Shown piece by piece: positions 6,874 through 27,815 of a stretch of DNA of 64,000 nt (the first letter of the stretch is position 1; the number at the start of each line of letters is the position of its first letter). The translations under genes were made by a program, and so were the position numbers. The DNA comes from Natrinema salinisoli (lineage in GTDB: Archaea; Halobacteriota; Halobacteria; Halobacteriales; Natrialbaceae), in contig NZ_CP084469.1 in NCBI RefSeq assembly GCF_020405205.1, forward strand, positions 3,906,001-3,970,000. The letters run 5' to 3'. The notes beneath the pieces were generated by a model, which had not been told where the DNA came from, ran no database searches, and saw only the letters and a program-made list of their open reading frames with translations.

Positions 6874-7857
6874 TCAGTACCGCCGCTCGAATATCGTTCC
6901 CGACTGGCCGACGACGAGCTGTGGCGATCGGGCGGTTTCGAGCGCGACCGCGAGCAGTTCGTTACCAGGTTGGAGGTCGACGAGCGTCGTCCAGTCGCCG
7001 TAGCGGCGTTCGAAGAGCGTACCGGTCGAAGAGACCGCCAGCGCGGTGTCGCGGTCGCGGGCGAGCGCGGCGATCGGCTGTTCGCCGAGGGTCGTCCGTG
7101 ACCAGTCGAGCCCGTCGTAGGTGTAGACGATGCCGTTGCCGCCCGCGACCGAGACGTGGCCGCTGTCTGTCGCCGCGACCGCCGCGAAATCGACGCCCGC
7201 GCCGCCGATCCCGATGCGGCTCCACGAGACCCCGGCGTCCCGGGACTCGAAGACGCCGCTGTCGGTGTCGACGACGTAGCCGTAGCCCAGCGGCGTGAGG
7301 TCGATGTCCGTCACGCTCGAGCCCGAGCCCGGTTCGATCACCTCGCTCCACTCGATGGTCGGGCCGTCGCGGCGACCGCGCAGGAGTTCGCCGGAGCTGT
7401 TGATGGCGGTGAGCCGTTCGTCGCCGGCCAGCCCGGCGACTGCGATCGCCGTCCAAGAGGTCGTCTTCCCCTTCGGCGCCGAGAAGTCTATCGTGCGGTC
7501 GGCGAGGACGTCGTAGAGCCCGAGCGCACCGCTGTCGCCGGCGACCCACATCGCGCGCCCGTTGCTCGTGACTGCCGCGGAGCGCAGGCCGTCGCCCCGA
7601 CCGCCGAGGCCGCCCTCGAGTTCGACGGTCCACTCGTCGCGATCGTCATCGCGTGCGAGGACGGTCCCGTTCTCGCCGACGGCGTACGCGCCGACGGCGG
7701 TCGGGACGACGTCGTACAGCGTCGCGTCGGTGGGAACGTCGGCGGCGACCCACTCGCTGTCGGCGTCGATACAGCCCGCGAGTGACAGCGACCCGGCCGC
7801 AGTGCCGATCGCTGCGAGGAGGGCGCGGCGGGACGTGTGGTAGCCGTGACTCGTCAT
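6874..7857 (-). CDS. Tat-exported propeller-like (YCF48-type) lipoprotein
   Basis: 327 residues. The N-terminus has a twin-arginine signal (SRRALLAAIGTAAGSLSL) ending in the lipobox LAGC, so it should be a folded lipoprotein on the outer face of the membrane. The rest is a series of short repeats of the type G-GYAVGENGTVLARDD / WVAGDSGALGLYDV / VVGQSGTIFERRY, typical of YCF48/BNR-like beta-propellers. It overlaps the upstream membrane-protein gene by ATGA (start 7857, previous stop 7854-7856), so the two are probably translationally coupled. A clear paralogue lies at 18906-20147 (same GDSGALG-YDV block). Function unknown; a scaffold or ligand-binding role is inference. Confidence 0.8.
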   Translation of the reverse strand: MTSHGYHTSRRALLAAIGTAAGSLSLAGCIDADSEWVAADVPTDATLYDVVPTAVGAYAVGENGTVLARDDDRDEWTVELEGGLGGRGDGLRSAAVTSNGRAMWVAGDSGALGLYDVLADRTIDFSAPKGKTTSWTAIAVAGLAGDERLTAINSSGELLRGRRDGPTIEWSEVIEPGSGSSVTDIDLTPLGYGYVVDTDSGVFESRDAGVSWSRIGIGGAGVDFAAVAATDSGHVSVAGGNGIVYTYDGLDWSRTTLGEQPIAALARDRDTALAVSSTGTLFERRYGDWTTLVDLQPGNELLAVALETARSPQLVVGQSGTIFERRY

Positions 7858-9341
7858 TCGTCGTCACGCATCGCGGAGTCCGCGTCGGTCGGCTGGCTCC
7901 GCGGGCCGTCCGATACTCGGGCGGCGCTGCGAGTATCGTACGACTGGTGGAACTCACCCGGCGGGGTGAACGCGCCCGGTGCGGAGGTCCGCTTGAGAAC
8001 CGCCGAGATGCGGACGACGTACGCGAACAGCACCGCGAGCGGGCTGAACGCGATCGCGAGCGCGACGCTCACGAGCACGAGCAGCCACCCCTCGAAGGCG
8101 ACCGGGGGGTAGCCGCTGGCGTAGATCATGATGACCAGCGTCGAGAGCAGGATCGCGCCCGTGCCGCTGTAGGTGATCAGCCGCGACAGCCGCGCGAGCT
8201 CCCGCTGGAGGTAGATCGTCGTGAAGTACTGTCGCGTCGCGTCCGCGGTGACGAACAGTTCGCGGAGCTCCGAGAGCAGCGACGCCGCTCGGTCCGACAG
8301 TTCCTCGTCGAACCGGCGCTCGAGTCGCCGCGCCTCGTTCGCAGCGCCGGCGTAGTCGTGGTCGATGGTCGGCAACACGACGGCGAACACCGACGTCGTC
8401 TCGCCGGTGAGCTGCGAGGAGAGCGCGCCCGTGTGCTCGCGGGTTCGTTCGGCGAAGCGGCAGACCGACTCGAGGGCGGAGATCGGCGTTCCGTCGGACC
8501 AGTTGGTATCTACTCGGCTGCGCTCGCTCCCGCCGTCGGAGTTCCGATCCGTGCAGCCGGCCTCGGTGGCGAGTTCGTCCGCGCGGCTGCCGAGCGTGCC
8601 GGCCAGCCGGGCGAGGAACGGGGCCGGATCGGTCGGACTGATACCGTCGCCCTCGGTCTGGGCCTCGACGCGGGTGCGGAACGCCTGGACGCCGTCGATG
8701 CGTTCGGTGAGTCGATCGGGCGTTCCGAACAGTCGCGAAATGATCAACTGGTTGACCGCGACGACGATCGGGATGAAGGAGAACAGACCCGCGATCATCG
8801 TACTGAACATCGTCGTGACGAACCGGCTCTCGCGGACGCCGATGACGTCGTTGATGCCCAGGAGGAGCGCGAGGGCGAAGACGCCGGCGACGAACCCGCC
8901 GACGATAACCCGGCGATCGCCCTCGAGCGAGAGCCACCGCTGTGCTCGGCGACGCGACTGGGTGTCGGTGAGGTACCGCGATGCGATTCGGACGCCGCTC
9001 CAGAGGAGGCGGCCGCCGACCACCAGTGCGGTGACCAGCAGTCGGAGGACGGAACTGACGAGAGAGAGCCCGAGCGATGCGGGATCCTTCTCATGGGCTT
9101 CGGTATCGTGATCCTCGCCGTCGACGTCGTCGTCAGTGTCGTCGGCACCTGTCTCGTCGCTGCCAGTGGCGGTGTCGTCGCTGTCAGTGACAGTGTCATC
9201 GCTGCTGGTATCGGTGCTCGCAGCGGCGTTCGAGCGGTCCGTGTCGGAGTCGGCTCCGGAATCAGACGTGGTACGTGCCTCGGAGGGCAGGGGCGAGTCG
9301 GAGTCGCGTTCGGAATCTGGCGGTGATGGATCGTCAGTCAT
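7854..9341 (-). CDS. Membrane protein with acidic Ser/Thr/Asp-rich N-terminus
   Basis: 495 residues, family not recognised. Residues 1-85 are almost only D, S, T, E and G (disordered). Hydrophobic segments then occur near 93-115 (SLVSSVLRLLVTALVVGG), 147-168, 180-205 (TMIAGLFSFIPIVVAVNQL) and as a pair near 390-450 (ILLSTLVIMIYASGY, WLLVLVSVALAIAFSPLAVLFAYVV). A large soluble segment of about 180 residues separates the second and third groups. It is the first gene of a coupled pair with the propeller-like lipoprotein (ATGA overlap at 7854-7857), so a membrane complex of the two is plausible inference. Confidence 0.75.
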   Translation of the reverse strand: MTDDPSPPDSERDSDSPLPSEARTTSDSGADSDTDRSNAAASTDTSSDDTVTDSDDTATGSDETGADDTDDDVDGEDHDTEAHEKDPASLGLSLVSSVLRLLVTALVVGGRLLWSGVRIASRYLTDTQSRRRAQRWLSLEGDRRVIVGGFVAGVFALALLLGINDVIGVRESRFVTTMFSTMIAGLFSFIPIVVAVNQLIISRLFGTPDRLTERIDGVQAFRTRVEAQTEGDGISPTDPAPFLARLAGTLGSRADELATEAGCTDRNSDGGSERSRVDTNWSDGTPISALESVCRFAERTREHTGALSSQLTGETTSVFAVVLPTIDHDYAGAANEARRLERRFDEELSDRAASLLSELRELFVTADATRQYFTTIYLQRELARLSRLITYSGTGAILLSTLVIMIYASGYPPVAFEGWLLVLVSVALAIAFSPLAVLFAYVVRISAVLKRTSAPGAFTPPGEFHQSYDTRSAARVSDGPRSQPTDADSAMRDDE

Positions 9342-9371
9342 GGGATACTGAGCGCGGTATCGGCGAGTGAC

Positions 9372-10436
9372 TCAGAGACCGTCGGAGACGATCTCGAGGA
9401 GACGCGTTGCGACCAGCAATAGTCCGGTCAGGAGGACGACCCGTCTGAGGATCGCGCCTCTGGTGGTTCTGATCCGGGAGCGATCGGTCGGGTGAAAGCC
9501 GACGGTCCACAGCGTCGCGATCGCGCCGACGTTGATCGCGATGACGTTGACCGCGACGACGACGAACGAGCCGATGACGGCTTCGGGGGCGTTCCAGGCG
9601 ATGCCGACGCCGATGACGCCGATCGGTGGCATGATCGCGGCGGCGATCATCACGCCGATGAGATCCGTGATCCCGGTCGTCGCCATCCCGAGGCCGCCGG
9701 CGATACCCGAACAGACCGCGACGGTCACGAGCAGGGATGGGGGCAGGCCGTGGCTGCCGAGTCCGAGACTCGCCTCGAGATCGACCGCGGTCGTGATGAC
9801 CCGCGACGTTCGCGCGAAGAGTGCGAACGCGAGGGCACTCGACATCGCGACGCCGATCCCGACGAGCTGGAGCTTGACGCCGCGAACGAACAGCTGGCGC
9901 TCGTCGAGGACGGTCGCGACGCTCGAGGCCATCGCCGGGCCGAGCAGGGGGGCGATCACCATCGCACCGACCAGGACCGCAAGCGAATCGAGGAGGACGC
10001 CGGTCGTGGCGACGATCCCGCTGATCGCGGTCATCGCGGCGAAGATGACCAGGGAGGGCAGCTGTGACTGGGCTTTCGACCGCAGCTCGCTCCGGGAAAT
10101 TCGTTCGAAGGACAGCCACTCGCGGCGGCCGTCGGCCGGGGACTCGTCCCAGTCGCTCCCGATGATCGCCATCGGTTCTTCGACGATGATGGTGACGTTG
10201 CCGACCGACGCGAGGTCGTCCTCGAGCGGTTCGATCGCGTGTTCGGGGGCGGGAACCGTGATCGTCCGTTTCTCGCCGTTGGTGTGGTCGGTGAGACTGT
10301 ACTCGAGGTTGTGGCGCTCGAGGATGGCCGTCACCTCGTCGGCGTTCGACTGTGAGGAGGCAAGCACCGTCAGGAGGCGCATATTCGACGTTTCCGTGGG
10401 AGAGTCCGACCGGCGATATCCGTCGCTGTCGGTCAC
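9372..10436 (-). CDS. DUF389 (TIGR00341-type) membrane protein
   Basis: 354 residues from the GTG at 10436, or 336 from ATG 10382 (MRLLTVLAS), which fits the usual start of the family. An N-terminal ferredoxin-like region precedes the hallmark membrane block SGIVATTGVLLDSLAVLVGAMVIAPLLGP and the later GIAGGLGMATTGITDLIGVMIAAAIMPPIGVIGVG, together about six or seven helices. This matches DUF389 hydrophobic proteins found in many archaea and actinobacteria; their function is unknown. The GTG start overlaps the upstream zinc-ribbon gene stop (GTGA at 10433-10436), indicating coupling. Confidence 0.88.
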   Translation of the reverse strand: MTDSDGYRRSDSPTETSNMRLLTVLASSQSNADEVTAILERHNLEYSLTDHTNGEKRTITVPAPEHAIEPLEDDLASVGNVTIIVEEPMAIIGSDWDESPADGRREWLSFERISRSELRSKAQSQLPSLVIFAAMTAISGIVATTGVLLDSLAVLVGAMVIAPLLGPAMASSVATVLDERQLFVRGVKLQLVGIGVAMSSALAFALFARTSRVITTAVDLEASLGLGSHGLPPSLLVTVAVCSGIAGGLGMATTGITDLIGVMIAAAIMPPIGVIGVGIAWNAPEAVIGSFVVVAVNVIAINVGAIATLWTVGFHPTDRSRIRTTRGAILRRVVLLTGLLLVATRLLEIVSDGL

Positions 10437-10999
10437 AGTAGCGCGAGTGCATCGGTATCGAGGGTGGGTTCGTCGGGGAATGCTCGAGCGAGCAGCGTAC
10501 AGACGGTTTCCCGGATCGTGACGAGCCGGTCGTCACGGGTGCCGGTACACGATCCGCCACAGCGGCCGATCGGGCCGTCCGGCCCGTCGACGTAGGTCAG
10601 GCGTCCGCCACAGTCCGGACACCGGGGCTCGGCGTGGATGCTCATCCAGTCGACGTCGAACCCGTCGCGGGCGAGTCGGTCGCCCAGCGCGTACCAGAGG
10701 ATATGGTCGCGCTCCTGATCGCCCGTCGCCACTCGTTTGAGCCGGCGGAGGACGAGCGCGGCGCGACAGTAGAGGTCGTCGTTCGCGTCACCGTGTCGCC
10801 GATGACACCGCCGGAAGTACGTTGCGAGCGCACGCCTCGAGGACCGACGTTTCCCCGTCGTCAGTGGTTCCTCGAGGGCCGCGTTCGGCGAGAGGTCGTC
10901 TGATTGTGGAACGCGCTCCGGACGGCCGCGTTCGTCGTAGTGGACCTCCCGCGAGAGAGATGCACCGCTGGTCGGACAGAAGGCATGTTTACCGATCAT
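10433..10999 (-). CDS. Zinc-ribbon hypothetical protein
   Basis: 188 residues from ATG 10999 (MIGKHAFCPTSGASLS); a longer frame reaches 11077 but that part is low in homology-like character. Two Cys motif groups are visible: CPTSG near the N-terminus and CPDCGGRLTYVDGPDGPIGRCGGSC near the C-terminus, the latter a credible zinc ribbon. The middle is rich in Arg (FRRCHRRHGDANDDLYCRAALVLRRLKRV). I do not recognise the family. It is coupled to the DUF389 gene by a 4-base overlap, which hints at a shared role. Confidence 0.7.
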   Translation of the reverse strand: MIGKHAFCPTSGASLSREVHYDERGRPERVPQSDDLSPNAALEEPLTTGKRRSSRRALATYFRRCHRRHGDANDDLYCRAALVLRRLKRVATGDQERDHILWYALGDRLARDGFDVDWMSIHAEPRCPDCGGRLTYVDGPDGPIGRCGGSCTGTRDDRLVTIRETVCTLLARAFPDEPTLDTDALALL

Positions 11000-11207: not shown

Positions 11208-11651
11208 ATGGCACGTGGTTCACTCACAGCCGTCGATTCGACTGATCGTGCGCCGTGGTACTGGTACGTTCTGATCGGCTATCCCGTCTTGAGTCTGTTC
11301 GGGATCGTTTCGCTCGCCCGCCTCACCCGAGGCGGGTCGGTTCTGGCCTCGAGTCTGGGGAGCATCGGTCTCTTGATTCTCGTCGCCGCTGCGGGCGCGC
11401 TCGTGCTCCCTGCCATCTGGCGCGACGGCGAGTTCGTCGCGACCGAGAGCGACACCTGGAGACCCGACAGGCAGGTCTACGTCGGTGCGGCGATCGCAGC
11501 GCCGCTGGCTCTCGGCGTTCTCGCCGGGCTGGTAGGCGGCTTCGGTATCGCGATCGCGACCGCGGTCTTCACGTTTCTCCTGTCGTCGGTAACGGTTTGC
11601 GTAACGTACCTCTACAATCGCCATCGGGAGATCGGGTTGTTGTACCGCTGA
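11208..11651 (+). CDS. Small four-helix membrane protein
   Basis: 147 residues from ATG 11208 (MARGSLTAVD); the frame extends upstream to 11145 but would run into the palindromic control region. Four hydrophobic stretches are seen: WYWYVLIGYPVLSLFGIVSLA, LGSIGLLILVAAAGALVLPAI, VYVGAAIAAPLALGVLAGLVGG and IAIATAVFTFLLSSVTVCVTYLY. It ends with a basic tail (NRHREIGLLYR). Family not recognised; such short membrane proteins are common in haloarchaea. The two tctaga palindromes just upstream suggest regulated expression. Confidence 0.7.
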   Translation: MARGSLTAVDSTDRAPWYWYVLIGYPVLSLFGIVSLARLTRGGSVLASSLGSIGLLILVAAAGALVLPAIWRDGEFVATESDTWRPDRQVYVGAAIAAPLALGVLAGLVGGFGIAIATAVFTFLLSSVTVCVTYLYNRHREIGLLYR

Positions 11652-11909
11652 GACTGACCGGGTAAGCGAAGCGTTTCCGAGCCCGATCGAACCGTAGGTC
11701 GATCACCCGTTCTCGGTGTACATTCTCTAGGTTTCGTCCGTATTTATAGGTCACAAGCCATTGGTTATTGCTGTCGGTTGGCCCGGACGACGCGCACCCG
11801 GCGCGGATGACATCCCGGCCCGATAGCACAGCCGCTACTGTCCGCTCGCCGACTTTCCGGGCAGTACACGTCTACTCGTCGACACGCTGCGATTACGCCG
11901 ACACCCATT

Positions 11910-17631: not shown

Positions 17632-18909
17632 ATGACTAGAAACACCACCAGCGACGAACTCAGTCGAACAGATCCCGATCTCGATGCCCCGTGGACGTAC
17701 GCGACGACCGCCGCGGATCGGCTCGCACTACCCGACGAGATCGAGCAGCGAATCCTGTATCCCGACCACCGTCAGCGGATCACGGTTCAGTTCGAACGCG
17801 ACGACGGCACGCTCGGCGTCTGCGACGGCTACCGCGTCCGCCACGACGACGTTCGCGGCCCGTATCTCGGCCCGCATCGGTACGCCTCCGAACTGACCGG
17901 CAACGATTGTGCCGGACTCGCGGCTGCGACGACCGTCAGCGCCGCGCTCGCCGGCATCCAATTCGGTGGTGCGGCGGGCGGAATCGCCGTCGATCCGACG
18001 ACGCTCTCGCGGGACGAACGCGTCCGACTCACTCGGTCCTACGCGGGCAGCGTGACCGGCGTCGGACCCGACAGCGACGTCCTGGTCCCGGACGTCGGGA
18101 CCGACGAGCGGACGATGGCACGGTTCGTCGATGCCGTCGCCGACCGAGTCGACGGGCCCCGTAATGCGGCAGTCGCCGGCAAACCGCCTGCCATCGGCGG
18201 CTTCCGGGAGATGCCCAGGGCGAGCGGCGACAGTATCGCGCACGTGACCCAGGACGTCCTCGAGACCGACCACGACTGCCCGCTGTCGGACGCGACGATC
18301 GCCGTCTACGGGGCCGGAACCCTCGGCGCGACGGCCGCGCGGCTGCTCGAGTTCCAGGGCGGCACCGTCGTCGCGATGTGCAGCGATCAGGCCGGGCTTA
18401 CCGCTTCCGGCGACGGGAACGGACTCGACACGGACCTCGTCCCGAGCTATCTCGAGCGACCGAGTGCCCTCGCCGAGTACGACGACGGAACGATGATCGG
18501 CACCCAGGACGTCCTCCAGCAGGATGTCGACGTGTTGCTTCTCGCGGCACCCGCGACCGCGGTGACCGCTCAGAACGCGGACGCCATTCGCGCTGATATC
18601 GTCGTCGAAGGCGCGACCGGTGCCGTTACTCCCGGCGGTCAGCGCGTCCTCGAGGATCGCGGAATCACCGTCGTCCCGGATGTCCTGGCGACGGCCGGAA
18701 CGATGGTCGCGGCCCACCTCGAGTGGGTCCAGAGCGTCGGTCGCGACCGGCTGGGTGACGCCCGCGTGAGCAACGAGTTCGGCTACGCGCTCACCGAGGC
18801 GGTCGACGACGTCCGAGACCGCCGCGAGCGGTGTAACCTGAGCTGGCGCGAGGCCGCCTACAGCGTCGGTATCTCCCGCGTCGCGGCCGCCCACGAGGTG
18901 GTTCGATGA
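17632..18909 (+). CDS. Glutamate-dehydrogenase-like protein lacking substrate lysines
   Basis: 425 residues from ATG 17632, close to the Glu/Leu/Phe/Val dehydrogenase length. Recognisable landmarks: LSRDERVRLTRSYAGSV, DVLVPDVGTDERTMARFVD (catalytic Asp region kept), the coenzyme fold VYGAGTLGATAARLLE, and the C-terminal VVPDVLATAGTMVAAHLEWVQ. However the usual GGGKGG loop reads GGAAGG (residues 112-117, Lys replaced by Ala115) and the substrate Lys about 12 residues earlier is Ser103. The enzyme is therefore unlikely to bind glutamate normally. It overlaps the next gene by ATGA. A regulatory or altered-substrate role is inference. Confidence 0.82.
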   Translation: MTRNTTSDELSRTDPDLDAPWTYATTAADRLALPDEIEQRILYPDHRQRITVQFERDDGTLGVCDGYRVRHDDVRGPYLGPHRYASELTGNDCAGLAAATTVSAALAGIQFGGAAGGIAVDPTTLSRDERVRLTRSYAGSVTGVGPDSDVLVPDVGTDERTMARFVDAVADRVDGPRNAAVAGKPPAIGGFREMPRASGDSIAHVTQDVLETDHDCPLSDATIAVYGAGTLGATAARLLEFQGGTVVAMCSDQAGLTASGDGNGLDTDLVPSYLERPSALAEYDDGTMIGTQDVLQQDVDVLLLAAPATAVTAQNADAIRADIVVEGATGAVTPGGQRVLEDRGITVVPDVLATAGTMVAAHLEWVQSVGRDRLGDARVSNEFGYALTEAVDDVRDRRERCNLSWREAAYSVGISRVAAAHEVVR

Positions 18910-20147
18910 TCGGTCCGCTAGAGGAATCCAAAACGAATGCGCTCGACTGGCTCACGCAACTCAATCCGATGAACCCGAACGAAGACGGTACGACGAGCGG
19001 AACGCACAGCGACGACCCCCCATCCGACGGGGGAGAGAACACCGACGAAGAGCGGGCTCGTGGCGAGGGCAGCGACGGAGACGGGAGTCGGGGCGATTGG
19101 ATAGCAGCCGAGTCCTCGACCTCACGAACCCTGCACGGCGTCGCTCACGGACAGGACGGGCCGTACGCGTGCGGCGAGGGCGGCATCTTCCTCCACCGGA
19201 CGCCCGACGGGTGGCGGACGCTCCTCGAACGTGGGCCGGGCGTGTCGGACAACACGCTACGGTCGATCGCCACGACCGACGACGGCTGTCGGCTCTGGTT
19301 CGCCGGCGACAGCGGTGCGCTCGGGTTCTACGACGTAGCTGACGGCCATCTCAGCGATCATTCCGCACCCATGGAGAAGACGAGCACCTGGGAAGCGATC
19401 GCCGTCACCGGAAAGACGGGCGAGGAGCGGGTCCGCATCGCGAACGGATCCGGGGAGGTCCTCGACTGCACCGTCGAGGACGGCTGTCCCGTCTGGGGCG
19501 ACGTGGTCAAACCCGGCGGCGGATCGACGATACCCGGCGTAACCGCCGGGCCGGACGGGTTCTACGCCGTCGACACCAGCGGCGGCGCGTACGTCGAACC
19601 ACCGGAGGGCGGGTCGACGGATAGCGCATCGACGAACGCCGATTCGACGGACGGCTCGACGACCGACGAATCCGCCGACGACGACGCGGCGGATACCGAA
19701 CCCAGCGGCGACGACGCTGCGAACGCGTGGGAACGGATCGGCGTCCGCAACGCACAGGTCGACTTCCAGGACATCTGGGCGGGCGAGGAGTCCGTCTTCA
19801 TCGCCGGTGCAGACGGCATCGCCTACCGGTACAGCCCCGACTGCGAGAACTGGACCCCGCTCTACGTCGGCCAGGGGGCACTCCAGACGATTCGATCCGT
19901 CGGAGCCGACGCGGTCGCCGTCGCGACCGGCGGGAGAATCTACGAACGCAACGAGAGCGTCCGCTGGGCCGAACTCGAGACCCCCACCGAGAAATCGCTC
20001 CTGGACCTCGCGCTCGCCCGCTCGAGTGCCGACGTCGACAGCGGACTCGGGACCGTCCCCGTCGACGTCGCCGTCGGTGCCGGGGGAACGATCCTCGAGC
20101 GCGATCGGCGGGATCGTTCGAACACTGACGCCCAACGCACTGACTGA
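18906..20147 (+). CDS. Propeller-like (YCF48-type) protein with acidic insertion
   Basis: 413 residues, starting at the ATG inside the ATGA overlap with the GDH-like gene. It repeats blocks such as GPYACGEGGIFLHRTPDG, WFAGDSGALGFYDVADG, VFIAGADGIAYRYSP and VAVGAGGTILERD, and aligns by eye through most of its length with the lipoprotein at 6874-7857. Unlike that paralogue it has no export signal; the N-terminus is a hydrophilic 65-residue stretch. A Ser/Thr/Asp-rich insert (about residues 233-273) splits two repeats. It is likely a cytosolic version, perhaps a partner of the degenerate dehydrogenase; that link is inference. Confidence 0.78.
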   Translation: MIGPLEESKTNALDWLTQLNPMNPNEDGTTSGTHSDDPPSDGGENTDEERARGEGSDGDGSRGDWIAAESSTSRTLHGVAHGQDGPYACGEGGIFLHRTPDGWRTLLERGPGVSDNTLRSIATTDDGCRLWFAGDSGALGFYDVADGHLSDHSAPMEKTSTWEAIAVTGKTGEERVRIANGSGEVLDCTVEDGCPVWGDVVKPGGGSTIPGVTAGPDGFYAVDTSGGAYVEPPEGGSTDSASTNADSTDGSTTDESADDDAADTEPSGDDAANAWERIGVRNAQVDFQDIWAGEESVFIAGADGIAYRYSPDCENWTPLYVGQGALQTIRSVGADAVAVATGGRIYERNESVRWAELETPTEKSLLDLALARSSADVDSGLGTVPVDVAVGAGGTILERDRRDRSNTDAQRTD

Positions 20148-20216: not shown

Positions 20217-21374
20217 TCAGTCCGCGTTTTCGAGCAGATCGATCACGTTTTCGCGCCCGATCCGGAGTTTTTCGACCGCGTCGTCTTCGGCCATTCCCGA
20301 GAGGACCCGCGAGGTCTTCGACGCCGACCAGTCGAGTTCGTCGGCGATCGCGGCCTGGCGCATGCGACCGTCGTTTCGCTCGAGGAGCGTCCGAACGCGA
20401 TCCTCGTCGGTCGCGAGGTCGGACGCCGGCGATGCGGGACTGCTCGCTGGCGTCCCCGCCGACTCGTCGCCGTCACGTTCCGCTCCGAGGCCGTCGTCAG
20501 TCCCGGTCGCGGCGGGGTCGGTCGCCCCGTCGGTCAGTACGGGGAGGCTCGAGCGCAACCGCCGACGGAAACCGCGTTGCGACGTGACGGACACGGCGAT
20601 CGCGGCGATCGCAACGAGCAGGATACTGCCGCCGACCACGAGCGGCATCCGACCCCACGAGTTCGTTCCCTCGCGGTCGCTGTCGACGGCCGAGTCGGCC
20701 GGCTCGAAGCGGACCGTGGGACGGTGATCGGCGAAGCTTTCGGGCCCGGCCCAGACGACGGTCGTGCCGTCCCGCTCGTCCGGTGGCGGTGCCGTCGCCG
20801 TCGGCGTGTACCCGTTCGGCGGGGCGATCTGCAATCGGTCGTCGTCGTCGAGATAGAACCCACCCTCGAACACGTCACCAACGGCGACTTCGTCGCCGTC
20901 GACCGCCCCGAAGTTCGTCCACGTGAACGAGTACGTGACTCTTCCCCACTGTCTCGGCACCTCCTGAATGGACGTCTCCGCCCGAAACGACGACGCCGTC
21001 ATGTTTCGATCGGTCGACTCCGCCGCGTTCGAGACGACGCCGGTCATCCGCCGTTCGAACTGCTCGACGTAGGTCTCTCGGTCGGCACGGAACTGCTCCT
21101 GGAAGGCCTCGTAGTCGTCCACTTCGGAGTCGTTGGCGAGGCGCGTCCGGACGGTCACCGACCAGTGAGCGGTGCCGTTCTCGTCCAGTGCGATTCGCGT
21201 CACCGTCGTATCGGCAGCTGGTGTCTCGGCTGCTGTGATCGCGGCCCCTTCGTCGATACCTGTCGGTTCAGATTGCCCGGTCGACGCCGTCGTCCCGAGC
21301 GGAACCGCCCCCAGCGTGAGTATCACTGCGAGGATCACGGCGGTGCGATCGAATGCTGTACTCACGGTTACCAC
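20217..21374 (-). CDS. Membrane-anchored regulator: extracellular domain, one TM, cytosolic HTH
   Basis: 385 residues. N-terminal hydrophobic signal (FDRTAVILAVILTLGAVPLG), an extracellular domain of about 200 residues rich in beta (YEAFQEQFRADRETYVEQFERRM, VTYSFTWTNFG, GGFYLDDDDRLQIAPPNGY), one transmembrane helix (MPLVVGGSILLVAIAAIAVSV), a disordered linker and a C-terminal winged helix (RVRTLLERNDGRMRQAAIADELDWSASKTSRVLSGMAEDDAVEKLRIGRENVI). This is a one-component sensor that could read the outside and bind DNA. The outer domain resembles the protein at 23115-23864. Start is GTG 21374 or GTG 21365; a TATA-like ttatacaa at about 21392-21399 fits the latter. Confidence 0.82.
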   Translation of the reverse strand: MVTVSTAFDRTAVILAVILTLGAVPLGTTASTGQSEPTGIDEGAAITAAETPAADTTVTRIALDENGTAHWSVTVRTRLANDSEVDDYEAFQEQFRADRETYVEQFERRMTGVVSNAAESTDRNMTASSFRAETSIQEVPRQWGRVTYSFTWTNFGAVDGDEVAVGDVFEGGFYLDDDDRLQIAPPNGYTPTATAPPPDERDGTTVVWAGPESFADHRPTVRFEPADSAVDSDREGTNSWGRMPLVVGGSILLVAIAAIAVSVTSQRGFRRRLRSSLPVLTDGATDPAATGTDDGLGAERDGDESAGTPASSPASPASDLATDEDRVRTLLERNDGRMRQAAIADELDWSASKTSRVLSGMAEDDAVEKLRIGRENVIDLLENAD

Positions 21375-21417
21375 TTATTTTCGAGAGGGGTTGTATAAGG
21401 ATACTGTCTTGAACGTT

Positions 21418-21442
21418 GCAAACCGCCGCAAATCGCTGCAAA
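21418..21442. repeat. Three GCAAA motifs at exact 10-base spacing
   Basis: GCAAA begins at 21418, 21428 and 21438 (gcaaaccgcc, gcaaatcgct, gcaaacgacc), one helical turn apart, in the 163-base gap between the divergent membrane regulator and secreted-protein genes. Face-aligned spacing is typical of cooperative protein binding, so it is a candidate operator for the HTH of the regulator. Confidence 0.4.
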
Positions 21443-21505
21443 CGACCGCGCGAACTGGATCCAACTCGCGCAATTCGGTAGGAGCCGATGCCACGATCGG
21501 TCCGG

Positions 21506-21511
21506 TTTATG
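21506..21511 (+). promoter_or_regulatory. TATA-like box for the secreted coiled-coil protein
   Basis: tttatg centred about 29 bases before ATG 21538, consistent with leaderless initiation of the two-gene operon 21538-23864. Confidence 0.5.
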
Positions 21512-21537
21512 TCTGATACGTTCCGAGGCGTGATCGG

Positions 21538-23118
21538 ATGATACCCCGACGACTACTGATCGCCTTGCTGGCGATCGCGCTTTGTACGAGCGTCCTCGGC
21601 CCGGCGGTCGCCGCCGGGACGGTGGCGCAGGACGAGACGAACAGCGACGACACTACCGAAGACACCGTGACCGTGACGACCGGCGCACAGCTGTCGACGG
21701 TCGTCACCGCGACGAGCGACGAAGTTCGGACCGACTTCGAGAACACGGTGTTCGAGGAACGCATGGAGCAAGGTAACGATAGCGATCGCGCAACGGCGAT
21801 CGCGGACCGTGCGGCGGTCCTCGAGAACCGGTCTGAAACTCTCCAGGCGGAGTACGAGGAAGCCACCGCGGCCTACGAGGCCGGCGACATCGACGAGTCG
21901 ACGTACGCCCAGCGACTCGCGTCGCTGAACGCGCGTGCCCAGAGCGTCGTCTCGAGTTACGACGCGCTCGAGGACCGCCTCGAGTCGATCGACGAGGTCG
22001 ACCGTCGCGCTGCTGGCGTGACGCCGTCCGAGCTCGCAGACGAGCGAGCGGCGGTGGCCGAGCTCACGAGCTCCGGAACCGACGCGCTGCTCCAGCAGTT
22101 CACGGGTGAAGCGCGCGGAAACGCGGAGGTCGAGGTCGATGGCGGCCTGTCGATCGAAGTCGAGAACGAGGACGGCGAACGGAGCCGTGAGTACGAGCGG
22201 CCCCGCGACGGGAACGGATCGCTGGTGCTCTCCCAGACGGAGGCGCTCACCGCAGCGACCGACGCCCTCTCCGACGTCGACGGAAACAGTAGCTGGAGCC
22301 TCGTCGAGGCCGAAACCGACGACGACGGCGTCTACGAGTTCGAGTTCGTTCTGACGGGAACCGAAACCGGCGAGGCCGAGGTCAGCGTCGACGGCGAAAC
22401 GGGAACCGTCTTCGAACTCGAGGAAGAAATCGAGGCCCGAGGGGCGGAAGAAGACGAGGACGATGACGACGATGGTGACGAGCGGGAGGACGAAGAGGAC
22501 GATAACGACGATAGTGACGAGCGGGAAGACGAAGAGGACGATGACGACGAGCGGTTGGTTATTCTGGTCGCGTCCGGATCGCCAGGACCCGGCGAAGAAG
22601 TGACGCTGCGGGTGCTCGCGGACGGACAGCCGGCAGCTAACGTGACGGTCACCGTCAACGACCAGACCGTCGGCGAGACGGACGGCGACGGCGAACTCAC
22701 CGTCACCCTGCCACGCGAGGAGGCCGATATCAAGGCTGAACACGGTGAGGCGGAGGGCGAACGAGAGTTCGAATTCGACGACGATTCGGACGAGATGGAC
22801 GACGACGCCGAATCGCAGTTCGACGCCGAGGCGACGATCGACAACGGAACCGTGACCGTCTCCGCGACGTTCAACGGGAGCTCAGTGTCGGGCGCAAACG
22901 TCATCGCAAACGACGAGTCGGTCGGTACGACCGGGGACGACGGCACGGTTTCGTTCGCCCTCCCCGCTGATGCGGACGAACTCGACATCGACGTGGTTCG
23001 GGGGGAACTCGAGACCGAGCTCGAGTTCGAGTTCGAAGCTGAAGACGAAGACGAGGACGAAACTGAAGACGAGGACGAAACTGAAGACGAGGACGAAACG
23101 GAAGACGACGATCGATGA
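21538..23118 (+). CDS. Secreted coiled-coil surface protein with acidic repeats
   Basis: 526 residues with a Sec-type signal (RRLLIALLAIALCTSVLGPAVAAG). Residues about 40-190 are a helical, coiled-coil-rich region (RAAVLENRSETLQAEYEEATAAYEAGDIDESTYAQRLASL in part) that matches the protein at 51046-51810. Then come a PepSY-like part (ALTAATDALSDVDGNSSWSLVEAETDDDGVYEFEFVLTG), an acidic tract made of two 39-base repeats, and two Ig-like domains (GEEVTLRVLADGQPAANVTVTVN; NGTVTVSATFNGSSVSGANVIAN). It ends in three EDEDET repeats with no C-terminal anchor. Its stop overlaps the next ATG (ATGA, 23115-23118). Confidence 0.8.
   Translation: MIPRRLLIALLAIALCTSVLGPAVAAGTVAQDETNSDDTTEDTVTVTTGAQLSTVVTATSDEVRTDFENTVFEERMEQGNDSDRATAIADRAAVLENRSETLQAEYEEATAAYEAGDIDESTYAQRLASLNARAQSVVSSYDALEDRLESIDEVDRRAAGVTPSELADERAAVAELTSSGTDALLQQFTGEARGNAEVEVDGGLSIEVENEDGERSREYERPRDGNGSLVLSQTEALTAATDALSDVDGNSSWSLVEAETDDDGVYEFEFVLTGTETGEAEVSVDGETGTVFELEEEIEARGAEEDEDDDDDGDEREDEEDDNDDSDEREDEEDDDDERLVILVASGSPGPGEEVTLRVLADGQPAANVTVTVNDQTVGETDGDGELTVTLPREEADIKAEHGEAEGEREFEFDDDSDEMDDDAESQFDAEATIDNGTVTVSATFNGSSVSGANVIANDESVGTTGDDGTVSFALPADADELDIDVVRGELETELEFEFEAEDEDEDETEDEDETEDEDETEDDDR
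22471..22548 (+). repeat. Two tandem 39-base acidic-coding repeats
   Basis: Units 22471-22509 and 22510-22548 are nearly identical and each encodes a D/G/E/R block with DEREDEEDD. They form a flexible charged linker and could vary in copy number. Confidence 0.7.
23047..23100 (+). repeat. Three tandem 18-base repeats (EDEDET)
   Basis: gaagacgaggacgaaact at 23047-23064 and 23065-23082, with a last copy differing in the final base at 23083-23100. In frame at the very C-terminus of the secreted protein; copy changes would keep the frame. Confidence 0.75.
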
Positions 23119-23864
23119 ATCGAGGATCGAACCGACCCCGACTCCGGCGGCTGGGTGCATACACGTCGCGGCTCTTCGCCGTCGTGCTGGTCGCGCTCCT
23201 CCTGACCGGAAGCGTCGTCGCAACGGCCGATAGCGCGAGTGCGATCGACGCTCACTCACAGGAGACGGACTCGGACTCGGCGTTCGTGGTCGCCCTCGAG
23301 GACGACGGCGACGCGACGGTGACCGTGGCCGTCACCTTCGACCTGACCGACGAGGCGGATCGAGCGGCCTTCCGGTCGCTCGAGGAGAACGAAACGGAAC
23401 GACGGGAACTCGAGTCCCGCACTGAACGGCGATTGCAGACGGTCGTGGCCGATGTAGCCAACGAAACCGACCGCGAGATGGCGATCGAGAACACTGGCGT
23501 CTCCTTCGAGACGGACGAGGCGGCCGATCGCGGTGTCGTCTCCGTCTCGGCGACCTGGCGCGGGTTCGCAGCCACCGAAGACGGGCGGCTGACCGTCGCG
23601 GAACCGTTCACAAGCGGGTTCACGGCGGATCAGGCGGTCGTCCTCGAGCTGCCCGACGGATACGCGCTCGCGGAGTCGACGCCGGAGCCGTCGGAGCGTG
23701 TTGATGGGCACATCAGCTGGGATGCGACCACCTCTCTCGACGGGTTCGAGGCAGTCATCGCCCCGTCGGGTGGGGCGAACGACGGTGACTCTCAGCCCGG
23801 GTTCGGACTCGGTGCGGCAGTGATCGCGATCGCTGGCGGTGCGTGGTTACACTGCCGTCGGTGA
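23115..23864 (+). CDS. Secreted single-domain protein related to the membrane regulator ectodomain
   Basis: 249 residues, coupled to the preceding gene by ATGA. The N-terminus is a basic stretch plus signal helix (LFAVVLVALLLTGSVVATA) and the C-terminus ends with a hydrophobic segment (FGLGAAVIAIAGGAWLHC) and a short basic tail, so it may be anchored at both ends or processed. The core (VALEDDGDATVTVAVTFDLTDEADRAAFRSL, VVSVSATWRGFAATEDGRLTVAEPF, LELPDGYALAESTPEP) follows the same order of elements as the outer domain of the HTH regulator at 20217-21374. Likely a surface partner of that system; exact function unknown. Confidence 0.78.
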   Translation: MNRGSNRPRLRRLGAYTSRLFAVVLVALLLTGSVVATADSASAIDAHSQETDSDSAFVVALEDDGDATVTVAVTFDLTDEADRAAFRSLEENETERRELESRTERRLQTVVADVANETDREMAIENTGVSFETDEAADRGVVSVSATWRGFAATEDGRLTVAEPFTSGFTADQAVVLELPDGYALAESTPEPSERVDGHISWDATTSLDGFEAVIAPSGGANDGDSQPGFGLGAAVIAIAGGAWLHCRR

Positions 23865-27077: not shown

Positions 27078-27815
27078 ATGTCAGTCTCTCTCTCCCTAGC
27101 GATGATCGACCTCGATATCGACATGCGGCAGTACGATTGTCCGTTCATCGATACGACCGACGACGTCGACATCGCGTTCTCGGCCGTCCAGTGGCAACTC
27201 GACACCGACGCGGAGAAACTCGAGACGCGTCTCATCGCCAAGACGGAGTCGAGGGGCGCACTCGAGGACGGCCTTCGAGCGCTTCGGGAGCACCCGAACA
27301 TGACGAACTGTTATATCCTCTCGAAGCGGGATACCACGGCGGAGATCGGCACGAAGATCGAGCAGACGAACGCTATGCGGACGATTCAGAACAACGGCGG
27401 CTACATCACCGGCCCCTTCCAGATCGAGAACGGACGAGAACGGTGGCACGTCGGCTTCGACGCGGACGAAGACGAGGATCGAGCGCTCGCGGCGCTCGAG
27501 CGACACAACGATTTCAGCGTCCAGGACCGCGACCAGTTCGGCCCGTCGACGCTGTTCGACCTGCTCGAGAATTCCGAGAGCGCGATGCAGTTGCTCGAGG
27601 GCTGTCGAGCGCTGACCGACACCGAACGCGAAACGTTCAAAGTCGCGTCTCGGAACGGCTATTACGAGACGCCGCGGGAGACGACGCTCGACGAACTCGC
27701 GGACCACTTCGATATCTCGAAGACGGCCGTCTCGATGAATCTCCGCCGGAGCGAGCGAAAGGTGCTCGAGGGAGTACTCGGCGCGATCGAGCGGATGGAC
27801 GACGACCAGCTCTGA
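27078..27815 (+). CDS. Bat-type HTH transcriptional regulator
   Basis: 245 residues. The C-terminal 65 residues (LTDTERETFKVASRNGYYETPRETTLDELADHFDISKTAVSMNLRRSERKVLEGVL) are a bacterio-opsin-activator HTH (HTH_10). The N-terminal part is the mixed alpha/beta domain that usually accompanies it (ALEDGLRALREHPNMTNCYILSKRD). The start at 27078 is chosen because of the TATA box 25 bases upstream; ATG 27102 is the alternative. Divergent from the SDR/acyl-CoA synthetase operon and upstream of the convergent liv operon, so it may control one of them. Confidence 0.88.
   Translation: MSVSLSLAMIDLDIDMRQYDCPFIDTTDDVDIAFSAVQWQLDTDAEKLETRLIAKTESRGALEDGLRALREHPNMTNCYILSKRDTTAEIGTKIEQTNAMRTIQNNGGYITGPFQIENGRERWHVGFDADEDEDRALAALERHNDFSVQDRDQFGPSTLFDLLENSESAMQLLEGCRALTDTERETFKVASRNGYYETPRETTLDELADHFDISKTAVSMNLRRSERKVLEGVLGAIERMDDDQL

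Follow-up and report, generated by a model that had tools for sequence, protein, structure and literature searches.

How do archaea convey the state of their surface to DNA without two-component kinases? Such signalling is poorly known, and the transmembrane regulators that might carry it are common and little tested. A locus in Natrinema salinisoli poses this question in compact form. Within a window of 64,000 nucleotides, the whole stretch of DNA analysed here (contig NZ_CP084469.1, positions 3,906,001 to 3,970,000), a gene for a membrane-spanning regulator (R) lies divergent from two genes that encode a secreted protein (M) and an outer protein (E) (Table 1). A preliminary description of this sequence had proposed that the state of a surface protein is read by the matching ectodomain of R and passed to DNA without a kinase. 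The three open reading frames that it placed here are all present, and its mechanistic interpretation is partly supported. We find that R, M and E probably form a self-contained, kinase-free transmembrane cassette of haloarchaea, in which R would regulate itself and the M–E operon and E would modulate R. Two elements are new: an operator-like array in the promoter region and the relationship of E to R as a truncated paralogue.

R has the build of a kinase-free membrane regulator (ectodomain, transmembrane segment and winged helix), as had been proposed. Its N terminus is hydrophobic and signal-like, and is followed by a DUF7345 ectodomain (PF24036; residues 60–189, 115.3 bits, E 2.8e-33, curated cut-off 27.5), a hydrophobic segment at about residues 240–266 that hydropathy marks as a transmembrane helix, a cytosolic linker and a C-terminal DUF7343 winged helix (Pfam; residues 320–380, 96.8 bits, E 6.6e-28). 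No solved structure related to R by sequence was found in the Protein Data Bank (PDB), and no relative was found in the viral contigs searched. CsmR of Haloferax volcanii was considered as a counterpart and rejected, since this 13-kDa winged-helix protein (encoded by hvo_1209) is much smaller than R.

E carries the same ectodomain (DUF7345, residues 59–183; 87.4 bits, E 1.2e-24, cut-off 27.5). A profile of 29 E proteins matches a profile of 39 R proteins with a probability of 99.9 and an E value of 3.4e-35 over 206 columns, and the alignment is colinear from the ectodomain through into the transmembrane segment. AlphaFold2 models of the two proteins (E, pLDDT 81.7 and pTM 0.75; R, 77.1 and 0.71) have an identical order of strands and helices, although the models, each built from a four-sequence alignment (the window and Natrinema salsiterrestre, locus L159), are not fully independent because each alignment holds both ectodomains. 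The shared ectodomain on which the preliminary description turned therefore stands by profile, by Pfam cut-off and by predicted structure, and the lack of structural relationship that it had named as grounds for refutation is not what the comparison shows. As judged from these alignments, the most apt description of E is an R truncated behind the membrane helix.

The same description had called E secreted. E is indeed predicted to be an outer protein; it is not merely secreted, as it ends in a sequence similar to a PGF-CTERM anchor, the mark of archaeosortase A substrates (a PGF motif, a transmembrane helix and a basic end). The PGF motif is visible in E, with a PGF-CTERM (TIGR04126) score of 19.6 bits that falls below the cut-off of 24.5; the model is matched at E 0.01 or better by 20 of 29 E relatives, and the relative in Halobaculum roseum is annotated as a PGF-CTERM protein. 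A sequence search for solved relatives of E in the PDB returned only noise. The best matches in fold searches were the FMO protein, ribophorin I/OST1, LppM, the N-domains of M1/M61 and PA4063/ZrgA, with Foldseek TM-scores below 0.5, VIA Z scores of at most 9.2 and a root-mean-square deviation mostly above 4 Å; because these matches are weak and mixed, we give the fold no functional class. VtrC, ToxR and lipocalins were not among the fold matches listed, which, the matches being weak, does not exclude them.

The separation of E from R is old. In a tree of 144 ectodomains (75 from E and 69 from R), the two groups are divided by one branch with support of 100/99, and this two-sided shape points to a single early split rather than to repeated local truncations. 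Pairwise distances among E proteins track those among R proteins across 53 loci (mirror-tree r 0.70; the best of 2000 permutations reached 0.13). The pair has thus been inherited together, in a correlation that does not separate interaction from common descent. Family f3 contains divergent E-like proteins of about 245–334 amino acids with no adjacent M (loci L124, L125, L126, L157 and L158), four of which form their own branch in the tree.

M, the middle protein, had been described as a surface coiled-coil protein. It is a DUF7096 protein (PF23379; 34.6 bits, E 2.3e-8, curated cut-off 27) with a signal peptide, a helical stretch and immunoglobulin (Ig)/Fn3-like repeats. Behind the signal peptide the chain is entirely soluble, comprising the helical DUF7096 region, a PepSY-like stretch, the Ig/Fn3-like repeats and acidic runs, and no C-terminal or membrane anchor was found by hydropathy. 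Of 32 M relatives, 24 match DUF7096 with E values of 0.01 or lower. PepSY (PF03413) is matched by 3 of the 32 at that level and does not reach its cut-off of 24 bits in M, where residues 231–293 score 19.3 bits. M and E look like one operon because their frames overlap by four bases (the ATGA at 23115–23118 joins the stop of M to the start of E).

DUF7345 occurs in all 242 of the 242 Halobacteria genomes searched, in 1 to 7 copies each (six in N. salinisoli), and some members of the wider phylum have it too. When 292 genomes were surveyed with the E profile, strong matches (E < ~1e-38) lay in short frames of about 235–345 amino acids and weaker ones in frames of regulator length; by the survey table, 57 of the 292 carry E. 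A scan of genome contigs with the single E protein matched only N. salsiterrestre. The survey and a family search together gave 74 loci with 75 E genes, in which reading frames were classified by custom profiles. Of the 75 E genes, 68 are immediately preceded by M on the same strand and 58 have an R within 3.5 kb, always together with M, so that the co-occurrence across haloarchaea which the preliminary description left as a check is borne out. Among these full cassettes, 35 have R on the opposite strand and 23 have it on the same one, and the M and E frames overlap for 29 of the 75 E genes. Because a genome of 3–5 Mb holds few R genes, we estimate from gene numbers, rather than from simulation, that R and E would be this close by chance in well under 1% of cases per E gene. 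The genes that flank the cassette vary by lineage, which marks R, M and E as a conserved unit; no further conserved effector gene was found in the flanks of the loci examined. A complete cassette on a 240-kb plasmid of H. roseum (NZ_CP082287.1, 54416–58397, locus L163; annotated as DUF4897, DUF4198 and PGF-CTERM) indicates that the set can move as a unit.

A further element emerged on reading the R–M intergenic regions, where a GCAAA-type unit recurs as direct repeats. In N. salinisoli, the pair pattern YGCAAMYNNNYGCAAMY has two overlapping matches, both within the array of Table 1, and none elsewhere in the 4.70-Mb genome; shuffles give an expectation of 0.04 in the window. When three units are required and up to three mismatches allowed, the array is again the single genomic site. 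The pattern was written after the array had been seen and its presence in the window is by construction; the weight therefore rests on its absence elsewhere and on its reappearance in other cassettes. Twelve further genomes with divergent cassettes gave 25 strict matches, of which 16 fall at the cassette, spread over 11 of the 12 genomes, whereas 12 congeneric genomes chosen for the lack of a close E yielded 2 scattered matches, no more than reversed-pattern controls. The array is thus tied to the cassette.

The ten-base spacing is evident without any fixed pattern. Base-match autocorrelation gives z scores of 12.2 at lag 10 and 3.6 at lag 20 for divergent regions with E, and of 8.2 and 8.1 for the R–M gaps of co-directional cassettes; the region upstream of R in the latter has no clear lag-10 signal (z 1.6). 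A first control set included coding sequence, with its three-base periodicity. In a cleaner set of 286 intergenic gaps drawn from those loci, the lag-10 z is −0.2, and the value for the cassettes was not attained in any of 1000 subsamples. A significant three-unit array is found at 46 of 73 M promoters, as against 5% of 120 control gaps. The unit changes by clade: CGCTGCAAAC is the Natrinema type, a GAAAC form marks the large f4 group, CGGAAAACGG occurs in co-directional cassettes of the family found in the window and GGCTTAATCC in f3/f7. In the window, the array lies 17 bp upstream of the putative TATA-like box of R, the position of which suggests a leaderless transcript, and about 60 bp upstream of that of M. 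The link between the regulator locus and the M–E operon through a dedicated promoter array is supported, and its position, specificity and clade-wise change of unit suggest that the array is the operator of R.

Part of this design is familiar. Transmembrane transcription regulators, which join a predicted transmembrane region and a DNA-binding domain in one chain, are widespread in archaea (PMC10269533), and R, with its segment at 240–266 and DUF7343 helix–turn–helix (HTH), falls within that definition as it stands in the portion of the survey used here (Demey 2023, PMC10269533). That portion counts single genes and describes no sensor-only twin, M gene or operator array of the kind found in the present cassette. 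The co-component systems VtrA/VtrC, ToxR/ToxS and TcpP/TcpH (Kinch 2022, PMC9214523) likewise use a membrane-tethered transcription factor without a kinase, and share with the cassette a second membrane-anchored outer component in the same locus (here in 58 of 75 cases, with a PGF-CTERM-like anchor). In those systems the sensor gene neighbours or overlaps the transcription factor gene (PMC9214523), whereas here M stands between the two and E overlaps M. The cassette is also archaeal, is built from DUF7345 and DUF7343, has its ectodomain at the N terminus and its winged helix at the C terminus, pairs two ectodomains that are paralogues and nearly always includes the third, secreted gene M. The VtrA/VtrC superfamily, by comparison, has a CadC-like N-terminal HTH and a lipocalin-like sensor, and the outer domains of co-component systems form an obligate heterodimer (PMC9214523). 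Sequence and fold searches, the latter with weak matches, found no homology to that superfamily; the HTH of R is DUF7343, and the CadC-type HTH is absent from the Pfam table of R, M and E. Given the different gene order, the family and end of the HTH, the paralogous ectodomains and the lack of detected homology, we do not file the cassette as a co-component member. The Pfam families DUF7345 (R and E), DUF7343 (R) and DUF7096 (M) are matched above curated cut-offs, and these family names carry no function. No relevant paper on DUF7345, DUF7343, DUF7096 or COG2512 was found in the literature searched, within which the circuit therefore appears undescribed.

We propose that R sits in the membrane, where its DUF7345 domain would sense on the outside and its winged helix would act on the inside. 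By binding the 10-bp repeats between the divergent promoters, R may control both its own gene and the M–E operon; since the arrays are placed just ahead of a core promoter, activation is the most likely mode. M would be secreted, and M or its partner is a candidate stimulus, or M a protein that the system monitors. E, the old paralogue that retains ectodomain and anchor, would be made under the control of R and displayed on the same membrane face; it could pair with the R ectodomain or compete for M or another stimulus and so close a feedback loop. Co-sensor or decoy is the best reading of E. Truncated decoy receptors are known in which a paralogue keeps the outer domain and anchor, lacks the output domain and is controlled by the receptor that it resembles. 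Their likeness to E, a protein known here from its sequence, is one of analogy and not of homology. The cassette packs a regulator, a probable operator, a sensor-only paralogue and a secreted partner into about 4 kb, and this compactness, in cultivable haloarchaea, makes ligand, dimerization and feedback directly testable. A dedicated operator also predicts a very small regulon, and hence a clean test.

In the most specific form of this proposal, R would drive, through the array, a ligand-like secreted M and a surface-anchored decoy E that tunes or switches off R, a version that we hold tentatively and consider somewhat unlikely in full. E might instead help R, as a co-activating or stabilizing partner akin to ToxS that serves in folding, protection or ligand binding, with M merely a target surface protein. 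Such a role would suit the shared locus and ectodomain and the predicted placement of both proteins at the membrane, and ToxS, TcpH and VtrC do protect or complete their regulators (PMC9214523); yet E is encoded with M and not with R, and the many R–M pairs that lack E indicate that an R of this family can work alone, which leaves the helper role possible but doubtful. The deep single split from R, with divergence thereafter, could also mean that E is a non-signalling surface or structural protein with a borrowed old ectodomain, linked to R by shared regulation only. We consider this unlikely in view of the colinearity into the membrane segment, the co-divergence with the local R (r 0.70) and the linkage at 58 of 75 E genes.

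An array between divergent promoters could block either of them, and M and E are envelope proteins, so that R might repress its own cassette until released when M or E at the surface comes under stress or is absent, as a switch for envelope homeostasis. In co-directional cassettes, however, the array lies upstream of the M TATA-like box and not over it, the usual position for archaeal activators, and we think repression rather unlikely. That a different factor reads the array, or that the repeats reflect DNA bending while R acts elsewhere, seems more doubtful still: arrays do persist at some M–E promoters without a local R, but the array is specific to the cassette, its unit differs between R clades and the genomes with such R-less M–E genes carry R genes elsewhere.

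Several observations nevertheless weigh against a cassette in which R reads the array and E modulates R. M–E genes stand without a nearby R at loci L085, L106, L107, L119, L120, L150 and L153, and several such promoters keep array-like repeats; since all tested genomes of this kind have R genes elsewhere, the persistence of the repeats fits R acting in trans and also allows another reader. By the test used, 27 of 73 M promoters lack a significant three-unit array, part of which we ascribe to guessed start codons. The correspondence between repeat unit and R clade is confounded by common descent, and the mirror-tree signal likewise contains the co-inheritance of species and cassette. R–M pairs without E are common (loci L097–L101, L127–L132, L134, L135 and L137), from which it follows that the family can dispense with E. 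Decayed remnants of R lie beside intact M–E genes at L079 (genome G258, 11425–11901) and L077 (G223, near 10725–10862), where array-like repeats are retained.

Table 1. Features of the R–M–E locus, in positions of the window
Feature	Positions	Strand	Description	Basis
R	20217..21374	-	385 aa, GTG start	Pfam, hydropathy, alignment of 39 relatives
R TATA-like box (putative)	21394..21399	-	CTTATA, ~20 bp before the R start codon	Read from sequence
Operator-like array	21417..21446	+	Three direct repeats of exactly 10 bp: TGCAAACCGC CGCAAATCGC TGCAAACGAC	Genome pattern scan, periodicity tests
M–E operon TATA-like box (putative)	21506..21511	+	TTTATG, 32 bp before the M start codon	Inferred, read from sequence
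M	21538..23118	+	Secreted DUF7096 protein, 526 aa	Pfam, hydropathy
E	23115..23864	+	249 aa, DUF7345 ectodomain, PGF-CTERM-like C terminus PGFGLGAAVIAIAGGAWLHCRR; R paralogue without winged helix	

The genome of N. salinisoli itself holds two R–M pairs without E, at positions 2642000–2660000 (L100) and 2820000–2838000 (L101) of contig G000:C1, one divergent and one co-directional; the co-directional member has a significant 10-bp array with a different unit. Two further loci on this contig, at 1022000–1040000 (L102) and 3257000–3275000 (L103), encode DUF7345–DUF7343 regulators on long tree branches with no M or E nearby. At L115 (G335, 7600–10526), an M gene is flanked by two E-like genes and there is no local R. 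Beside R in the window, a 413-amino-acid reading frame on the forward strand (18906–20147) has no Pfam or NCBIfam match and is conserved in N. salsiterrestre (L159, 1729–2970). Farther away, at 27078–27815 on the forward strand, lies an HVO_2525-type regulator with an HTH_10 domain, relatives of which are found close to the cassette at 11 of the loci.

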